A model generated the notes under the pieces. It worked only from the letters and a program-made list of their open reading frames with translations, searched no databases and was not told the origin of the DNA. Below, in pieces: positions 1,256-8,566 of a stretch of 51,351 bases of DNA. Origin of the DNA: Synechococcales cyanobacterium PMM_0082 (GTDB lineage: Bacteria; Cyanobacteriota; Cyanobacteriia; Pseudanabaenales; Pseudanabaenaceae); assembly GCA_949127865.1 (NCBI GenBank), contig CASBQR010000139.1, positions 1 to 51,351 on the forward strand, read 5' to 3'. The stretch's first letter is position 1, and the number at the start of each line of letters is the position of its first letter. The translations under genes and the position numbers were made by a program.

Positions 1256-1558
1256 TCATAAAATGATTTCTTTTCCAACACTGCGATCGCGTAAATCTGC
1301 AAAATCATCATCAGTAAATCTCAATCCATCATTTTCGATTGTCAACCTAAATTTTTGCAAACCCTTCCAAAAATCAGACATTTTAGATTCTTGACGCTCT
1401 TCTACTATCAAATCTACGCCCCGATCAATAAGCACAGCATTCTCTAAAATCACCGTGATTTCTTCCTCCAAAGTGCGCTGATGCGATCGCGCAAGATTCT
1501 GAAGTTTCTTGATCACATCTGGTTTCATCGTTTGTAAAGTGATTTGATTCATACTCAC
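1256..1558 (-). CDS. FitA/VapB-type ribbon-helix-helix antitoxin (apparently orphan)
   Basis: MNQITLQTMKPDVIKKLQNLARSHQRTLEEEITVILENAV RHH-like N-terminus; FADLRDRSVGKEIIL C-terminus typical of FitA-like antitoxins; no PIN gene directly downstream. Confidence 0.7.
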   Translation of the reverse strand: MSMNQITLQTMKPDVIKKLQNLARSHQRTLEEEITVILENAVLIDRGVDLIVEERQESKMSDFWKGLQKFRLTIENDGLRFTDDDFADLRDRSVGKEIIL

Positions 1559-1649
1559 TTCTCCTCAATGTTACGCTAGTGTTTAGTTTATCTCAGCAAT
1601 CGCTTTTTACAAAATTTTCACGATTAAATTATAAAAATTTCTTCTTTAT

Positions 1650-2057
1650 TCATGCTACTATCTCCCAATCTTCAAGTCGTACCCCATCCACACGCTCAAA
1701 CTCCCTTGTATTATGTGTTACCAGAATTAGATTGTTTGCCAAAGCGATCGCTGCAATCTGTAAATCATAAGCACCAATCGGAGTTCCTGCACTAGCCAGA
1801 ATCGCTCGAATTTGACCAAATAAAAGTGCCGCATCATCCCCAAAAGGTAATGAGATAAATCTCTCTAAAAAGTCTTGTTGATGTTCCAATGTTCTAGTTG
1901 GATTATTACTTCGCATTGCACCATAAAATAGCTCAGCCTTGACAACAGAGCATACAGCCATATCTTCAATGGGTGTCGAAATTAAGCGATCGCGTATTGC
2001 ACTTGACCGACCATTAAAATACGCTGCACAAGCATTAGTATCCAACAGATAACGCAT
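1650..2057 (-). CDS. vapC: PIN-domain toxin, VapC family
   Basis: MRYLLDTNACAAYFNG..., ...CSVVKAELFYGA..., ...GAYDLQIAAIALANNLILVTHNTREFERVDGVRLEDW: PIN acidic residues and layout. Confidence 0.92.
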   Translation of the reverse strand: MRYLLDTNACAAYFNGRSSAIRDRLISTPIEDMAVCSVVKAELFYGAMRSNNPTRTLEHQQDFLERFISLPFGDDAALLFGQIRAILASAGTPIGAYDLQIAAIALANNLILVTHNTREFERVDGVRLEDWEIVA

Positions 2058-2059
2058 TT

Positions 2060-2326
2060 TTAGTCAAAAGCTCTAACAAGTTCATCATCAAGGCTCTCTA
2101 ATATGCCGCGATCGTCAAGAATAATCGGATCGTCTGCACAAACCCCATAAAGATTCTCCAACGGTACAGACACAGGTGTTAACGATTTTCCCTGATCGGC
2201 ATTATCCAAACTTACGGGCTGATAAATCACCGTTACCTCTACCTCTCTCTCTGTCAAACCAACAGGAATATCCAGATGAAGAATACCATCTTGTCTAATA
2301 TGCTTTCGTACTTTGATACTTTCCAT
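2060..2326 (-). CDS. Antitoxin partner of the PIN toxin (AF2212/DUF104-like N-terminal module); ORF track begins at 2341, M6 (2326) preferred
   Basis: MESIKVRKHIRQDGILHLDIPVGLTEREVEVTVIYQPV...; ends 2 bp before the VapC start. Confidence 0.65.
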   Translation of the reverse strand: MESIKVRKHIRQDGILHLDIPVGLTEREVEVTVIYQPVSLDNADQGKSLTPVSVPLENLYGVCADDPIILDDRGILESLDDELVRAFD

Positions 2327-2343
2327 TGTTCTAAACACCATAG

Positions 2344-2529
2344 CTATATAGATACTTCCTCACCCAACTCTTTCAAAATTCCTCGCAACTCAGCCAGAGC
2401 TGCTTCCAACTCACCTATTGCCTCTTGAGCCAAGATCGCTGGTTCAGGCAGATCACTATTATTATCCGCATTTTTATCTTTTAGCCCTAAATGCCAGTAA
2501 ACTCTTTTCAATCTACTGCCATCACTCAC
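2344..2529 (-). CDS. Small hypothetical protein upstream of the VapC pair
   Basis: 61-aa ORF, 2 bp from the antitoxin ORF, acidic/Leu-rich C-terminus (EAIGELEAALAELRGILKELGEE). Confidence 0.45.
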   Translation of the reverse strand: MSDGSRLKRVYWHLGLKDKNADNNSDLPEPAILAQEAIGELEAALAELRGILKELGEEVSI

Positions 2530-2823
2530 ATTTCGCGCAGCATAATAAGTGTTATTGCTTTTTTAGGATTAGATTCTCTAGATTATAGGTAAGTCAAAAT
2601 GAGAATCTTTAAAGTAGGGATAAAGCAATTTGGTCGATGCGATTGCGAATTTTAAGGATAGAATTTTGTGTATCCATTTCATTGCTCTTTACCCAAAGGG
2701 AAAGCCTCCATGTTTGGTGATAATTTGGTTAATATCGCTCATGGTTTCAGACAGGATAGAAATGATATTTTGATAATGGGTGCGATCGCCCATTTCATAT
2801 CAAGCCAAATATCAAGCAGATCA

Positions 2824-3168
2824 CTAAGCTCCATTTTTTATCAAATACTGACTTAAGTTTTCTAAGAGTCTTCGATGTCTTTCATGTGAAATCTCTCCAA
2901 TCGATCCCATCGCATTTTTATGGGAAATTGCGGTTAAAAAGCTCAAACGGATAACAGATGTACTGATTAGCCCACTTGCTCGAAAGTCTATATCGGTTGG
3001 TGCGATAATTTCGTCAAAGTTGGGGATGTATTGCTTCAGTTGAGTGCTAATACCACAAATTAAAAGATCTTGATATTTAGGCATTTCCCTCGGAACAAGG
3101 GCAGGACGATTTTTTATTTCGCCATTGAATTGAGGTATGGCTGTAAGGATGATTTTAGCTTCTTGCAT
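2824..3168 (-). CDS. MazF/PemK-family endoribonuclease toxin
   Basis: KIILTAIPQFNGEIKNRPALVPREMPKYQDLLICGISTQLKQYIPNFDEII...DFRASGLISTSVIRLSFLTAI: PemK-like 'KNRPALV...LICGIST' pattern; overlaps upstream ORF 3155..3406. Confidence 0.8.
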   Translation of the reverse strand: MQEAKIILTAIPQFNGEIKNRPALVPREMPKYQDLLICGISTQLKQYIPNFDEIIAPTDIDFRASGLISTSVIRLSFLTAISHKNAMGSIGEISHERHRRLLENLSQYLIKNGA

Positions 3169-3406
3169 AGCGATCGCTATATTCTTTAATCAAATCGAGT
3201 GTATATTCTGGTTCGTCATTTCCATAACATTGATTGAGGTTCTGTAAGGCGAAATAGTCCCAATCATCTTTATTCTCTAAATTATTTTTTGATTCTTTAT
3301 TTAAAGGAATTGGGATGATTAATACTTGTGTTCCTTCAGGAATAGATAAGGATTCGGGGATTTGAATTTTACCGTCCTTAACGATCGCTACAATGGATGA
3401 TTGCAT
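3155..3406 (-). CDS. Antitoxin of the MazF/PemK pair (AF2212/DUF104-like N-terminus)
   Basis: MQSSIVAIVKDGKIQIPESLSIPEGTQVLIIPIPLN; overlaps toxin start by 14 nt. Confidence 0.7.
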   Translation of the reverse strand: MQSSIVAIVKDGKIQIPESLSIPEGTQVLIIPIPLNKESKNNLENKDDWDYFALQNLNQCYGNDEPEYTLDLIKEYSDRYARS

Positions 3407-3573
3407 GGTAATATTCCTAGTTTTTAATATTTTAGCATTGGCATATCATCACAGCTTTAGCGATCGCCCATCTTCAATATCAAGCTAAATTTCAATCATA
3501 AGGCGATCGCCACATCTTATCAACCCCTTACCCATTATAAGGATTCTAGTAAAGATTTTCTAAGGTTACTAAT

Positions 3574-3966
3574 TTACAGATTTTCATTTTTTTCGATGAT
3601 ACGCTTGATTTCAGATGCTGATATATCTGCTTGTTCAGACTTTGAGTAAATCGTAATCAGAATAATGGATGTAGTAGTTCTGACATAATAAATCACTCTA
3701 TAACCTGCACTTTTCCCTTTTTGGTTATCGCTATTTTTAACCCGCAATTTAAAGACTGTATAGCCAATATTTGCAATTTGATCGCCTTGGAATTTACCTT
3801 GTTGTAAATCCTCTAGAACTGGCTGAATGTCTTTGCGGATGCTGCAATATTTTTTGGCGAGTTTACGGAGGCTGTTTTTAAATTCATCAGAGAATCTAAT
3901 TTCAACTAATGGATCAATCGACATCAATTCCTTCCCATAGTTCAGAAATTGGTTTGGTTCTGCCAT
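3574..3966 (-). CDS. RelE/ParE-superfamily toxin (internal start M16 also possible)
   Basis: VEIRFSDEFKNSLRKLAKKYCSIRKDIQPVLEDLQQGK...YTVFKLRVKNSDNQKGKSAGYRVIYYVRTTTSIILITIYSKSEQADIS. Confidence 0.8.
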   Translation of the reverse strand: MAEPNQFLNYGKELMSIDPLVEIRFSDEFKNSLRKLAKKYCSIRKDIQPVLEDLQQGKFQGDQIANIGYTVFKLRVKNSDNQKGKSAGYRVIYYVRTTTSIILITIYSKSEQADISASEIKRIIEKNENL

Positions 3967-4162
3967 TCATCGCATCTTCCCATCCGCGCTGAAAGCTTTC
4001 TATGGGTGAATCGTCTTCTGTCTCTATAGTTTGACTAGCATTAATTTCTCGATCTAGTAAATCTCTCAATCTAATTTTTTCTTGCAGTCCTAAAGATTGC
4101 ATCATTTCGATTAATGATTCAAAGGGAAGGGATAGGTTTACTTTTATTTGAATTGGTTGCAT
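3914..4162 (-). CDS. Antitoxin of the RelE/ParE pair
   Basis: 82 aa acidic protein directly upstream and overlapping the toxin ORF; ...SFQRGWEDAMNGRTKPISELWEGID. Confidence 0.6.
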   Translation of the reverse strand: MQPIQIKVNLSLPFESLIEMMQSLGLQEKIRLRDLLDREINASQTIETEDDSPIESFQRGWEDAMNGRTKPISELWEGIDVD

Positions 4163-4264
4163 ATTGGTTTAGCTCCTGATTGTGATTATCTAATCTCCAT
4201 AACCATCGGATCGCCTATCTCAAAAATCAATCAAATAGCGATCACCACACGTTCTAGGAATTTT

Positions 4265-4305
4265 TTGTATAGCCATCAAGTAAAAAAGTACTGCTTACTA
4301 TACAA
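4265..4305. promoter_or_regulatory. Inverted repeat TTGTATAG...CTATACAA in the divergent intergenic region; candidate operator
   Basis: Perfect 8-bp arms 4265-4272 and 4298-4305, upstream of 4372..4674 (+) and of 4162 (-). Confidence 0.4.
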
Positions 4306-4371
4306 GATAATTTAGATGATGTGTAAGTATATTGTTATGATTCTATTTCTACTCTCAATTAAGAGGGATAT

Positions 4372-4674
4372 ATGCCAACTCAAGGATATGGGCTTTTCGT
4401 TACTGAGCCAAACGCCTATAAATCATTAGAATGTAACATCTGCGGTTCTCAATGCCTAGTTGAGCGTAACTTGCCAGCAAAATCAGGCTTCATAGCAGCT
4501 ATGGGGAGGATGGACAAGCCTCGTGATGAATTTTCTTGCTCCAATCTAGAGGAAGAATGGCACAAACAGGCAGTAAGCCTTGTAATGGAGATAGAGAAAA
4601 CGCCAAGCAAACGTATTGGACAACTAATGCAGCAAGATCTAGAAGATTTACTCCAAAAAAATAACATTCATTAA
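4372..4674 (+). CDS. Small Cys-rich (possible zinc-binding) protein, first gene of the CBS-HEPN-like unit
   Basis: MPTQGYGLFVTEPNAYKSLECNICGSQCLVERN...DEFSCSNLEEEWHKQ; CxxCGSxC cluster; 16 bp before the next gene on the same strand. Confidence 0.7.
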   Translation: MPTQGYGLFVTEPNAYKSLECNICGSQCLVERNLPAKSGFIAAMGRMDKPRDEFSCSNLEEEWHKQAVSLVMEIEKTPSKRIGQLMQQDLEDLLQKNNIH

Positions 4675-4690
4675 TTTAAGGAAGACGACT

Positions 4691-5848
4691 ATGTTCAGAC
4701 ACTTTAAAGATTTAGACAAATTAGCGAATGCACTTCATGTTGAGCATTTTGCAACTATGGACAGTGAATTGGAATATGTTGATTCAGAAGATCTTGCTGT
4801 AGAAGTGCTTGCTTGGATGAAAGCCAATGATTTTAATATTGTTCCTGTGAAAAAAGATGGCGAAAAATCTTTCTTTATTGATAGAGAAAAAGATCTCAAA
4901 GATCTTGCTGAAGGAGAAATTATTGCAAATCGCATGAAACCAATAGACCCTAGTAAATTCGTTGAGAAAGGTAAGTTTATTAAAGATGCACTAAAAGAAC
5001 TAAGTGAAAGAGGATGGTTTTTTGTCGGCACTGGTAATGTAGTACTAGAGGGAATCGTTACTCTAGAGGATTTGGGTAAGCCTGCTGTATCTTTTTACTT
5101 GTTGTCTCATCTTTTGATGTTGGAATCTGGACTCAGAAGACTTTTGGGGTCATACACTAATGATCCAATGCCTGATGCAGCAATAGATCACGGCGAGAGC
5201 TTTACTAATATAATTAATAGAGTCAAAAAGGAAAAACCGTTAAGATCCAAATTAGGATTTGCCTCAAACAATCAGTTTGACAACTATACAGGTTTTATGG
5301 GAGAGCTACGAAATGCTCTTGCTCATGGTCGTAGTATTCTAACTAAGGCTGGTGGCAGTGTAAAAAAAGCTACTGACTATATCGAGAAAATTGATTCTTT
5401 ATTGAAAAAAGTTGAAGAGTTGATCAATGACAAAGATGACATAGATGACGTATGGGATAAGTTTGCTGAAACTCATGTCGTGAAACATACAGAGCAAAAT
5501 TGGGCTGGAACTAATGCCATGCCTAATTTGCCAATGAATTACCCCATCTATGTGATATCAGCAGCTAATCCTTTAGAAGAAGTGTTGTCACCTGAGGAGA
5601 ATAAAAAAAGACACTGTGGTCTTCAGTCTATTTTGGTATCTCGCAAACTAAAATTTGAAGAGGTATTCGGTGAGTCTCCTAATGGAACATGGTCTGAGGC
5701 TAGTTTTGCTGTCGAAGGTATGAGCCAAAAAGATGCTTGTGAATTAGCTAAAAAGTTTGGACAAAGGGCAATCTTTGAACTTACTGAAGATGAGATAAAA
5801 GTTATTTCAGTTGATGGAGAATGTAAGAAAAGAAAAGCACGCTGTTGA
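4691..5848 (+). CDS. CBS-domain / HEPN-like / DUF3293 fusion protein
   Basis: N-term CBS-like tandem (LAVEVLAWMKANDFNIVPV..., ...GIVTLEDLGKPAV); middle 'GELRNALAHGRSIL' with RX4H (RNALAH) HEPN-type motif; C-term 'YVISAANPLEEVLSPEENKKRHCGLQSIL...GTWSEASFAVEGMSQKDACELAKKFGQRAIFEL' resembling DUF3293. Confidence 0.75.
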   Translation: MFRHFKDLDKLANALHVEHFATMDSELEYVDSEDLAVEVLAWMKANDFNIVPVKKDGEKSFFIDREKDLKDLAEGEIIANRMKPIDPSKFVEKGKFIKDALKELSERGWFFVGTGNVVLEGIVTLEDLGKPAVSFYLLSHLLMLESGLRRLLGSYTNDPMPDAAIDHGESFTNIINRVKKEKPLRSKLGFASNNQFDNYTGFMGELRNALAHGRSILTKAGGSVKKATDYIEKIDSLLKKVEELINDKDDIDDVWDKFAETHVVKHTEQNWAGTNAMPNLPMNYPIYVISAANPLEEVLSPEENKKRHCGLQSILVSRKLKFEEVFGESPNGTWSEASFAVEGMSQKDACELAKKFGQRAIFELTEDEIKVISVDGECKKRKARC

Positions 5849-5873
5849 TAACTAACCATATGTGGAATTAGTA

Positions 5874-6251
5874 TCAAATCTTATGAAATTTGCCTGTTTC
5901 ACACGATTGCCAATGTTCACCATTTATAAGAACTTTGCACTGATTTCCTTTAACTATGCGTAGATGACCAGCAATTTCATCTGATGATAACTCTGAACTA
6001 TCGATCTCCTTCGTTTCAGCACCAACATTGAATAGCTCATTACTTTCGATTGCTTCTAGCAGTGATGCGTATACCGTTGTGTTTTCGTCACTGCTGAGAT
6101 AAACAATATATTTATCGCCCCAACGATATACCTGCTCAAGATCCGCACCTGCCCCAAGTGATTCACTATCCCAATACACACTGTACACAGGTTCTTCTTC
6201 CAAAAGAGTCCCTAATTCTTCATCACTAGGAAATTGGCTATATTTAGCCAT
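5874..6251 (-). CDS. Hypothetical protein
   Basis: 125-aa ORF convergent with 4691..5848; no recognised family. Confidence 0.55.
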   Translation of the reverse strand: MAKYSQFPSDEELGTLLEEEPVYSVYWDSESLGAGADLEQVYRWGDKYIVYLSSDENTTVYASLLEAIESNELFNVGAETKEIDSSELSSDEIAGHLRIVKGNQCKVLINGEHWQSCETGKFHKI

Positions 6252-6301
6252 TGTAGTAATTGCTTATATTATGAATTTTCTCAATTATTCTAATACTTCC
6301 A

Positions 6302-6340
6302 AGCGATCGCCATACTCATAAACCTGTCAACAAGCAATTA
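6302..6340. repeat. 39-bp direct repeat, copy A (toxin-distal boundary of the DUF5615/DUF433 pair)
   Basis: agcgatcgccatactcataaacctgtcaacaagcaatta; 38/39 identical to 6936-6974. Confidence 0.9.
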
Positions 6341-6346
6341 GCGATC

Positions 6347-6682
6347 TCATTCTGTCACAACTGTAACTTGACCCTTATTTGCTGAATCCAGAACCGCTAA
6401 AAGATTTGATGCTAAAGGCTTGAGCGCAGCTAAGCTATTTGATGGTGCTTGCAAAACCACTACAGCAATATCAAACTGAGGTATATTTTGTTGAAAAGAT
6501 AAATTGCGATCAACCGTCACAAATACATCAAACTCTTCTACAGCAAGAGCTAAAAGCTTACCATTTTTAACTCCTGCCCATCCCATTTGCGGAACTGTCT
6601 TCACCTCATAGCCAATAATCTCTCTAGCGAATCGGCGATCAATACACTCATCCAAAAGAATCCTCATATTACGCCGCCACAC
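6347..6682 (-). CDS. DUF5615 PIN-like (Mut7-C-like) toxin
   Basis: MRILLDECIDRRFAREIIGYEVKTVPQMGWAGVKNGKLLALAVEEFDVFVTVDRNLSFQQNI; start probably the MRILL methionine. Confidence 0.85.
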   Translation of the reverse strand: MWRRNMRILLDECIDRRFAREIIGYEVKTVPQMGWAGVKNGKLLALAVEEFDVFVTVDRNLSFQQNIPQFDIAVVVLQAPSNSLAALKPLASNLLAVLDSANKGQVTVVTE

Positions 6683-6887
6683 TAAAAAATGCTCTTCCTA
6701 ACTCTTCCAAAAAGTAAATAACTTGTTCCCTAGTTACAGTTGGGAAACCATCTAAAAAATCATCAATAGACTCTCCTGCTTTAAGATAATCTAAAAGCGT
6801 TTGTACAGGAACTCTGGTATTTGTAAATACAGTCGTACCACCCATAACATCGGGAGATCTGCTGATAAACTTTGAGTCTCTAAACAT
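6669..6887 (-). CDS. DUF433-family antitoxin; ORF track begins at 6971, M29 (6887) preferred
   Basis: MFRDSKFISRSPDVMGGTTVFTNTRVPVQTLLDYLKAGESIDDFLDGFPTVTREQVIYFLEE; the extra N-terminus in the track (MLADRFMSMAIARA...) is translated from the intergenic 39-bp repeat. Confidence 0.85.
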   Translation of the reverse strand: MFRDSKFISRSPDVMGGTTVFTNTRVPVQTLLDYLKAGESIDDFLDGFPTVTREQVIYFLEELGRAFFSVAA

Positions 6888-6935
6888 AAATTTGTGATAT
6901 TTAGATATATCTAATATTTTAGCAACTATTGCCCT

Positions 6936-6974
6936 AGCGATCGCCATACTCATAAACCTGTCAGCAAGCAATTA
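6936..6974. repeat. 39-bp direct repeat, copy B
   Basis: agcgatcgccatactcataaacctgtcagcaagcaatta; one mismatch to 6302-6340. Confidence 0.9.
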
Positions 6975-6995
6975 AGCGATTGCTGATTTATCTCT

Positions 6996-7259
6996 CTATT
7001 TCTCATAATGAAATCTACAACCGACAATGATCACAGCATCTTCATTAACTTTATAAACTAAGCGATGTTCATCCGAAATTCGCCTTGACCAATATCCCTT
7101 TAGATCATATTTCAAAGGCTCAGGCTTACTAATCCCATCAAAAGGAATGCGTAATTTATCACTAATCAGATTAACGATTTTGCCATAAATCTTCTTATCC
7201 TCTCTAGCCCAATTATTGAAATCTTGAAAAGCTTGCGGTTCAAATACAATATTTTTCAT
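6996..7259 (-). CDS. yoeB: YoeB/Txe-family mRNA interferase toxin
   Basis: FEPQAFQDFNNWAREDKKIYGKIVNLISD...GISKPEPLKYDLKGYWSRRISDEHRLVYKV...IIVGCRFHY: hallmark YoeB motifs. Confidence 0.95.
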   Translation of the reverse strand: MKNIVFEPQAFQDFNNWAREDKKIYGKIVNLISDKLRIPFDGISKPEPLKYDLKGYWSRRISDEHRLVYKVNEDAVIIVGCRFHYEK

Positions 7260-7497
7260 GCCATTCCTCAGCCGAAATCGTAATCAAACCTTCCCCTTTT
7301 TCTATATTAGAAACTGCATCTAACAACCTTTTGCGATTTGCCGAAGTAGAAAGCAAATAATCTGGTTCATCCTCACTATTAACCAATAGAATTATTTCAA
7401 CCTGTGTACCTTCAAGCAACTCTGGCGTATAAAGTTCAATTTTTCCATCTTTACCGACAGTCCCCATCTGCTTAATTGCTGTTACCATTGGCTGCAC
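7240..7497 (-). CDS. Antitoxin of the YoeB pair: AF2212/DUF104-like N-terminus with YefM-like C-terminus
   Basis: AIKQMGTVGKDGKIELYTPELLEGTQVEIILLV + SANRKRLLDAVSNIEKGEGLITISAEEWHEKY; overlaps toxin start. Confidence 0.75.
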   Translation of the reverse strand: MQPMVTAIKQMGTVGKDGKIELYTPELLEGTQVEIILLVNSEDEPDYLLSTSANRKRLLDAVSNIEKGEGLITISAEEWHEKYCI

Positions 7498-7568
7498 CTA
7501 TAGTTTCTATGGATATTTGGATATTTTAGCAATAATTGCTTTGGCGATCGCTATATAGCTTCTTGAGG

Positions 7569-8492
7569 TTACGAGGATTTAGCTGATTCTTGTAGGTTGA
7601 GGATAATTTTTTCTAAGTCAAAGCGATCGGCGCGATAGATTTCCGAACAAAATTGACAAGTTGCCTCAGCTCCTTGATCTTCATTGATCATTTCCCGCAA
7701 CTCCGCCTCACCAAACATCCTTAAAGCGCCTAGTACTCGGTCGAAGGTGCAACGACATTTAAATTTGACTGGCTGTTCCTCGGGGATGATATTTAACCCT
7801 AAATCACCTAAAAGATTCTCAATAATCTGTCTTAGGGTCATACCTTGTTTGAGGAGGGCAGTAAATTCGCTTAAGCTTTTAACCCGACTATCTAATAGTT
7901 CTAGTAAGTTATAGTCACGGCGGGCTTGGGGCATAATTTGCAGGAGTAAGCCGCCCGCAACATCCACACCATTGTCATCGGTTAATACGCCAGTTAATAG
8001 GGCTGATGGTATTTGCTCTGAAGAAACTAGGTAGTAGGTAATATTTTCACTAATTTCACTGGATACTAGCTCCACATTGCCTGAGTAGGGCGTGCCATAG
8101 CCGACATCTCGAATTACCTGAATAAAGCCATTTGTGCCAAGGGCTGAGCCTAAATCAAGGGAGTTTGGATTAGATAGAGGTAGCTCTAAGCTGGGATTAT
8201 CGACATAGCCCCGAACTGTGCCATCAAAGCCAGCATCGGCGAAAATTAGTCCGAGTTTACCATCACCATTCAGGCGAATACTAACTCGGGCTTGGGGTTG
8301 TTTCATACCTGATGCTAGGAGGAGGGCTGCGGTCATAGTTTGCCCTAAAGCTTTTGTGGTCAGGGCTGACATTTTATGCCGACGACCAGCTTCTGCGGTT
8401 AGGTTGGTTGTAGTCACGGCGACAGCTTTGATGCCTCCATCTACGGCGGTTGCTCGGATTAAGCGATCGCCTGTGCCAAAATTTTCTACCAT
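7569..8492 (-). CDS. hslO: Redox-regulated chaperone Hsp33 (track start 8534; M15 at 8492 preferred)
   Basis: DRLIRATAVDGGIKAVAVTTTNL...GHKMSALTTKALGQTMTAALLLAS-type region...KFKCRCTFDRV...ATCQFCSEIY (CxC...CxxC). Confidence 0.95.
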   Translation of the reverse strand: MVENFGTGDRLIRATAVDGGIKAVAVTTTNLTAEAGRRHKMSALTTKALGQTMTAALLLASGMKQPQARVSIRLNGDGKLGLIFADAGFDGTVRGYVDNPSLELPLSNPNSLDLGSALGTNGFIQVIRDVGYGTPYSGNVELVSSEISENITYYLVSSEQIPSALLTGVLTDDNGVDVAGGLLLQIMPQARRDYNLLELLDSRVKSLSEFTALLKQGMTLRQIIENLLGDLGLNIIPEEQPVKFKCRCTFDRVLGALRMFGEAELREMINEDQGAEATCQFCSEIYRADRFDLEKIILNLQESAKSS

Positions 8493-8566
8493 ATCTATAC
8501 TTAAAAAAAGTCTGAAATTAATTTCTGGGATCACAAAACCCCTTTATATTAACTCTTGCTAGAAAC

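Follow-up and report, generated by a model that had tools for sequence, protein, structure and literature searches.

A putative mobile CBS-HEPN cassette of Pseudanabaena-type cyanobacteria with a SAM-lyase-like DUF3293 module

Fusions of a CBS pair to a HEPN domain were noted as early as 2013 (PMC3710099), and in 2026 a one-protein representative of this architecture, DS-11, was validated as an anti-phage system that defends E. coli and needs both the predicted CBS ligand contact and the HEPN residues (PMC13092281). The other group of proteins relevant here are the SAM lyases, stand-alone trimeric enzymes represented in phages by T3 gp0.3 and Svi3-3 (PF23780), in which a Gly, a Glu and a Gln are named as conserved, ligand-contacting residues (PMC7877911); the Glu and the Gln are also present in the CRISPR SAM-AMP lyase (PMC12255297). 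Pfam treats DUF3293 (PF11697) and S-AdoMet_lyase (PF23780) as separate families, and in the literature searched we found neither a paper on DUF3293 nor an earlier mention of its fusion to CBS-HEPN proteins. The CBS-HEPN defence architecture is already known; the SAM-lyase-like reading of DUF3293 is new here.

The cassette described below lies in a 51,351-nucleotide stretch of cyanobacterial DNA, the whole of which we call the window. Its main protein (the "effector") is similar to DS-11 (NF053863) in having a CBS pair followed by a probable HEPN domain in one polypeptide, and differs from it in possessing DUF3293 and being accompanied by small partner genes, both of which DS-11 lacks. The features of the cassette are:

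4372..4674, plus strand: Cys-rich partner protein, 100 aa, with CxxCxxxC plus C56 and H64
4691..5848, plus strand: effector, putative fusion of CBS pair, HEPN and DUF3293, 385 aa
4691..5074, plus strand: CBS pair, residues 1-128 (Pfam CBS in homologues; Foldseek)
5075..5464, plus strand: helical HEPN-like domain, residues 129-258 (AF2 helices, sub-threshold Pfam, hhalign)
5309..5326, plus strand: R-x4-H motif, R207..H212 (RNALAH)
5465..5845, plus strand: SAM-lyase-like (PII-like) C-terminal domain (PF11697, Foldseek, hhalign)
5555..5773, plus strand: DUF3293 core, residues 289-361 (Pfam PF11697, E=1.1e-17)
5669..5764, plus strand: codons of the SAM-lyase-type triad, G327 (5669-5671), E336 (5696-5698) and Q358 (5762-5764), from the hhalign alignment
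5874..6251, minus strand: third cassette gene, 125 aa, acidic product, convergent with the effector gene

The two plus-strand ORFs with their coordinates, a CxxCGSxC motif in the 100-aa protein and the 16-bp gap between the genes had been reported in an earlier note on this DNA, and all of them were confirmed on the window, the motif reading CNICGSQC. Homologues are found elsewhere at 37-76% identity for the 385-aa protein and at 52-89% for the 100-aa protein, with pairwise dN/dS values of 0.23-0.40 and mostly 0.1-0.3, respectively, and on these comparative grounds we regard both ORFs as real conserved genes under purifying selection, not chance ORFs. The cassette is flanked (window 1256..7497, minus strand) by a dense run of toxin-antitoxin (TA)-like gene pairs, among them PemK/MazF-like (2824..3168) and RelE/ParE-like (3574..3966) toxins. 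As described in the note, it contains the only plausible plus-strand coding unit of this island, since each remaining plus-strand ORF within 1256..8534 is short and overlaps a gene on the minus strand. The proposed two-gene unit holds insofar as both genes are conserved and co-oriented, but the third conserved gene at 5874..6251(-) had been overlooked.

The proposed order of CBS, HEPN and DUF3293 in the effector is supported by Pfam, Foldseek, the alignment of homologues and the HEPN motif. Pfam CBS gives no match in the window protein itself and exceeds the curated cut-off in four of the five fusion homologues scanned (best 2.3e-8); in the AF2 model of the full-length effector (pLDDT 76.9, pTM 0.63) the CBS part finds its Foldseek matches (prob 1.00) in CBS pairs whose structures contain ATP, AMP or c-di-AMP. 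The HEPN identity of the following region is supported by its motif, homology, sub-threshold Pfam matches and predicted helices. Conservation of the motif, on which the earlier note had made its reading depend, was checked, and R207 and H212 are invariant in eight homologues that are 37-76% identical. The effector shares with the HEPN families RiboL-PSP, Swt1 and MAE_28990 (PMC3710099) the R-x4-H motif and the polar residue after the R, together with sub-threshold Pfam matches (e.g. HEPN_RiboL-PSP, E = 0.028 in the window and 1.2e-4 in L003); unlike these families, the window effector falls below every Pfam HEPN cut-off, and no Pfam HEPN model exceeds its cut-off in the scanned homologues either. 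AF2 predicts a helical bundle, for which the top HEPN match in Foldseek is weak (4nqf_A, prob 0.41), and in hhalign 239 columns of the CBS+HEPN part align, at prob 99.6, with the wider cyanobacterial CBS-HEPN family, which has the same motif. We infer, in agreement with the earlier proposal, that the effector is a nucleotide-gated RNase.

Against the NF053863 model, whose curated cut-off is 260 bits, the window effector scores 14.2 bits and its homologues 12.8-16.8 bits, all below the cut-off, and the match of the CBS part is weak (E 0.017 in the window, 0.0027 in L016). Stand-alone cyanobacterial CBS-HEPN proteins match the same model at 5.6e-8 and 3.2e-6, also below the curated cut-off, and a search for the class with NF053863 returned mostly generic CBS proteins, none of them over the cut-off. 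At the level of sequence similarity, the stand-alone CBS-HEPN proteins are intermediates that link the fusion to DS-11. By the NF053863 model the fusion is not a DS-11 member; judged by the analogous architecture, it probably works like DS-11.

The presence of DUF3293 in the effector is certain; the domain had been called correctly, and its resemblance to SAM lyases had been missed. In a Foldseek search of the PDB, the AF2 model of residues 129-385 (pLDDT 78.2) matched the phage T3 SAM lyase first (8bb1_E, E 0.01, prob 1.00), with 7ock_K likewise at prob 1.00, and among viral predicted structures its top match was a phage DUF3293 protein (6.8e-7), structures annotated as SAM hydrolase being matched at 2.6e-4 and 3.3e-4. 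With hhalign, a DUF3293 profile of 14 sequences aligned to a T3-type SAM-lyase profile of seven sequences with E 9.3e-5, prob 58.9 and score 30.7 when the ends were trimmed, a trimming picked after the untrimmed result (prob 15.5, E 0.0017, with an incorrect L072 ORF) had been seen; the best of 60 column shuffles scored 15.9 and the reversed profile 9.05. In this alignment the Gly, Glu and Gln that the lyases conserve fall opposite G327, E336 and Q358. As hmmsearch with DUF3293 against PDB sequences gave chance matches only, the case for a relation to SAM lyases depends on the fold, the profile-profile comparison and the motif, by which DUF3293 looks like a SAM-lyase-superfamily domain with a PII-like alpha-beta fold. 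The tail differs from SAM lyases in being fused to CBS-HEPN and in two features of the active site. The catalytic Glu is kept in five of the ten fusion copies (window, L002, L003, L017 and the second copy of G020), with Gln in its place in the other five (L004, L005, L006, L016 and G017), and the active-site Tyr (Tyr58 of Svi3-3) is absent, no Tyr being found after G327 in the alignment. Because of these two differences, ligand binding seems more likely than cleavage to be general across the copies.

In the Pseudanabaena family, the Cys gene is always located directly upstream of the effector gene when both share a contig. Its product belongs to no family of Pfam, PADLOC, NCBIfam or PHROGs. 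A match to PF16095 (COR-A) at 0.035 was dismissed as noise. Because C21, C24, C28, C56 and H64 are invariant in eight homologues, we infer that it is a metal-binding, possibly Zn-binding, partner, and it is a possible regulator or antitoxin of the effector, the Cys gene being intact where the effector is broken. The third gene occupies the same convergent place in G030, G025, G014, G020 and G017 (74-86% identical), lies 5-25 bp from the effector gene and has dN/dS of 0.14-0.25; searches with its 125-aa product matched no known family. A gene of G328 that is distantly related to the third gene (L104:6039-6431, E 5.5e-29) adjoins a CRISPR array, and no CBS-HEPN effector was found near it in the 12 kb read.

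In L004 the CBS part is like that of the window (83%), whereas the HEPN (65%) and DUF3293 (74%) parts are like those of L006 and only 40% and 49% identical, respectively, to the window; by these sequence identities the effector is a mosaic, with domain swapping between copies. Three effector copies are broken, two of them at the HEPN motif: in G017 the break lies just upstream of the motif (repeated 9-mer GATGATATG, inverted ends GGCGTTGTTGCAT), in the second copy of G020 it lies inside the motif (inverted ends CTCACCTTACGCAGA), and in G026 the effector is broken in DUF3293, adjoining transposase-like ORFs (read by eye). The breaks in G017 and G020 coincide with contig ends, and the inserted elements lie beyond the sequence read. 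The Cys genes stay open beside all three broken effectors, and G018 possesses a Cys gene without an effector. This pattern fits a costly effector with a harmless partner, although the broken copies may also represent ordinary gene decay.

DUF3293 was found in 11 of 391 cyanobacterial genomes, with ten of its 12 matches located within the present fusion or its fragments. The distribution of the fusion is patchy (8 of 59 relatives), and the flanks differ in every genome. All close effector homologues in named records are from Pseudanabaena, and in the 391-genome cyanobacterial sample the Cys protein is limited to the Pseudanabaena family. An initial single-protein scan of genome contigs gave no match, and PADLOC 2023 contains no model for the effector (best 0.029). 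Neither the effector nor the Cys protein has relatives in the viral contig scans, the phage collection or PHROGs, and thus nothing indicates that phages carry them. The effector homologue of Cyanobium sp. Morenito 9A2 has a type IV restriction helicase on one side and an hsdM-AbiEi-AbiEii-hsdS cluster on the other, and no homologue of the Cys protein was found beside it. About 4-6 kb upstream of the G026 cassette there are genes for a type II cytosine methyltransferase and a restriction enzyme (L057:2098-4402).

We consider it somewhat better than even (a probability of roughly 0.55) that the cassette is a mobile, metabolite-gated HEPN RNase with a SAM-lyase-like ligand module and partner genes. 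According to this model, the three genes would move horizontally as one cassette, the CBS pair would bind an adenosine-type ligand and set the geometry of the HEPN dimer, and upon phage infection the disturbed metabolites would cause the dimer to cut RNA and thereby stop growth. The DUF3293 module would bind SAM or a SAM-derived ligand, either as a second input or to switch the effector off, and in copies with the Glu, the window copy among them, may also cleave such a ligand, while the Cys-rich protein encoded just upstream would act as a regulator or antitoxin. A costly effector or a role in defence is suggested both by the neighbours of the Cyanobium homologue, which include AbiE genes and restriction genes of types I and IV, and by the disruption of three effector copies, two at the HEPN motif. 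Several observations count against the model: the fusion scores far below the NF053863 cut-off, Foldseek supports HEPN weakly, the Glu is Gln in five of ten copies and the Tyr is absent, most Pseudanabaena copies sit among TA genes and not in a classic defence island, and we found no phage link of the cassette. The TA surroundings suit a plain toxin-antitoxin module, in which HEPN would be the toxin, the Cys-rich protein or the product of the convergent gene the antitoxin, and CBS and DUF3293 would do no more than adjust stability, the module not being directed at phages in particular; a small gene lies directly upstream of the HEPN gene, and the Cys gene is intact at four loci with the effector broken or missing. 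We nevertheless regard it as doubtful, as the Cys protein of the window shares 74-89% identity with those of L002-L006 and the effector 41-76%, without the co-divergence expected of a cognate antitoxin, no Cys-type partner was found beside the Cyanobium effector, and the related DS-11 works as a one-protein system.

Another solution makes the DUF3293 tail an active lyase of SAM or its derivatives, serving as the effector itself or as a ligand-clearing off-switch, with CBS sensing the product, e.g. MTA. The window copy has the full Gly/Glu/Gln triad, and lyases of the same fold clear the SAM-AMP messenger in type III CRISPR (PMC12255297); yet the E69Q variant of Svi3-3 is nearly inactive even though SAM is still bound (PMC7877911), and with this very residue in half of the copies and a non-conserved active-site Tyr we find this solution decidedly unlikely. 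The proposal that CBS-HEPN proteins are nucleotide-responsive RNA regulators (PMC3710099) and the recurrence of stand-alone CBS-HEPN genes in the sampled Nostoc-type genomes would agree with a housekeeping protein that adjusts the turnover of RNA to the cell's energy state or SAM supply, without any phage role or toxicity, but the patchy, mobile occurrence of the fusion with different flanks in each genome, its mosaic domains, disrupted copies and restriction and Abi neighbours make this very improbable. Returning to the metabolite-gated RNase, a speculative elaboration that we rate as rather unlikely is that the SAM-lyase-like domain senses phage anti-restriction (SAM loss or a SAM-derived signal), or a phage SAM lyase via mixed trimers as an integrated decoy, and then frees the CBS-gated HEPN RNase; it would thereby guard the neighbouring restriction-modification systems, which phages put out of action when they destroy SAM.

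The cassette probably works as an anti-phage or toxin system that metabolites trigger, and it would be a variant of the recently validated CBS-HEPN defence family. It would join CBS-HEPN defence proteins, with their presumed adenosine ligand, to SAM-based signalling and counter-defence, allow the assignment of DUF3293 to the relatives of SAM lyases to be tested, and add SAM, MTA and SAM-derived messengers as candidate ligands for the CBS-HEPN class.

Other cyanobacteria possess a second CBS-HEPN architecture of ~570-615 aa (L106:1635-3437, L062-L068); over their CBS part, its members reach 1e-17 to 1e-22 against the DS-11 model. In G092 the gene of this architecture immediately precedes that of a type I methyltransferase, and the C-terminus of its product matches the PADLOC candidate PDC-S11. 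In two cyanobacteria we also found stand-alone DUF3293 genes of ~150 aa (L031:1336-1788, L105:5818-6261), which keep the Gly, Glu and Gln and possibly represent a free-standing SAM-lyase-like family.
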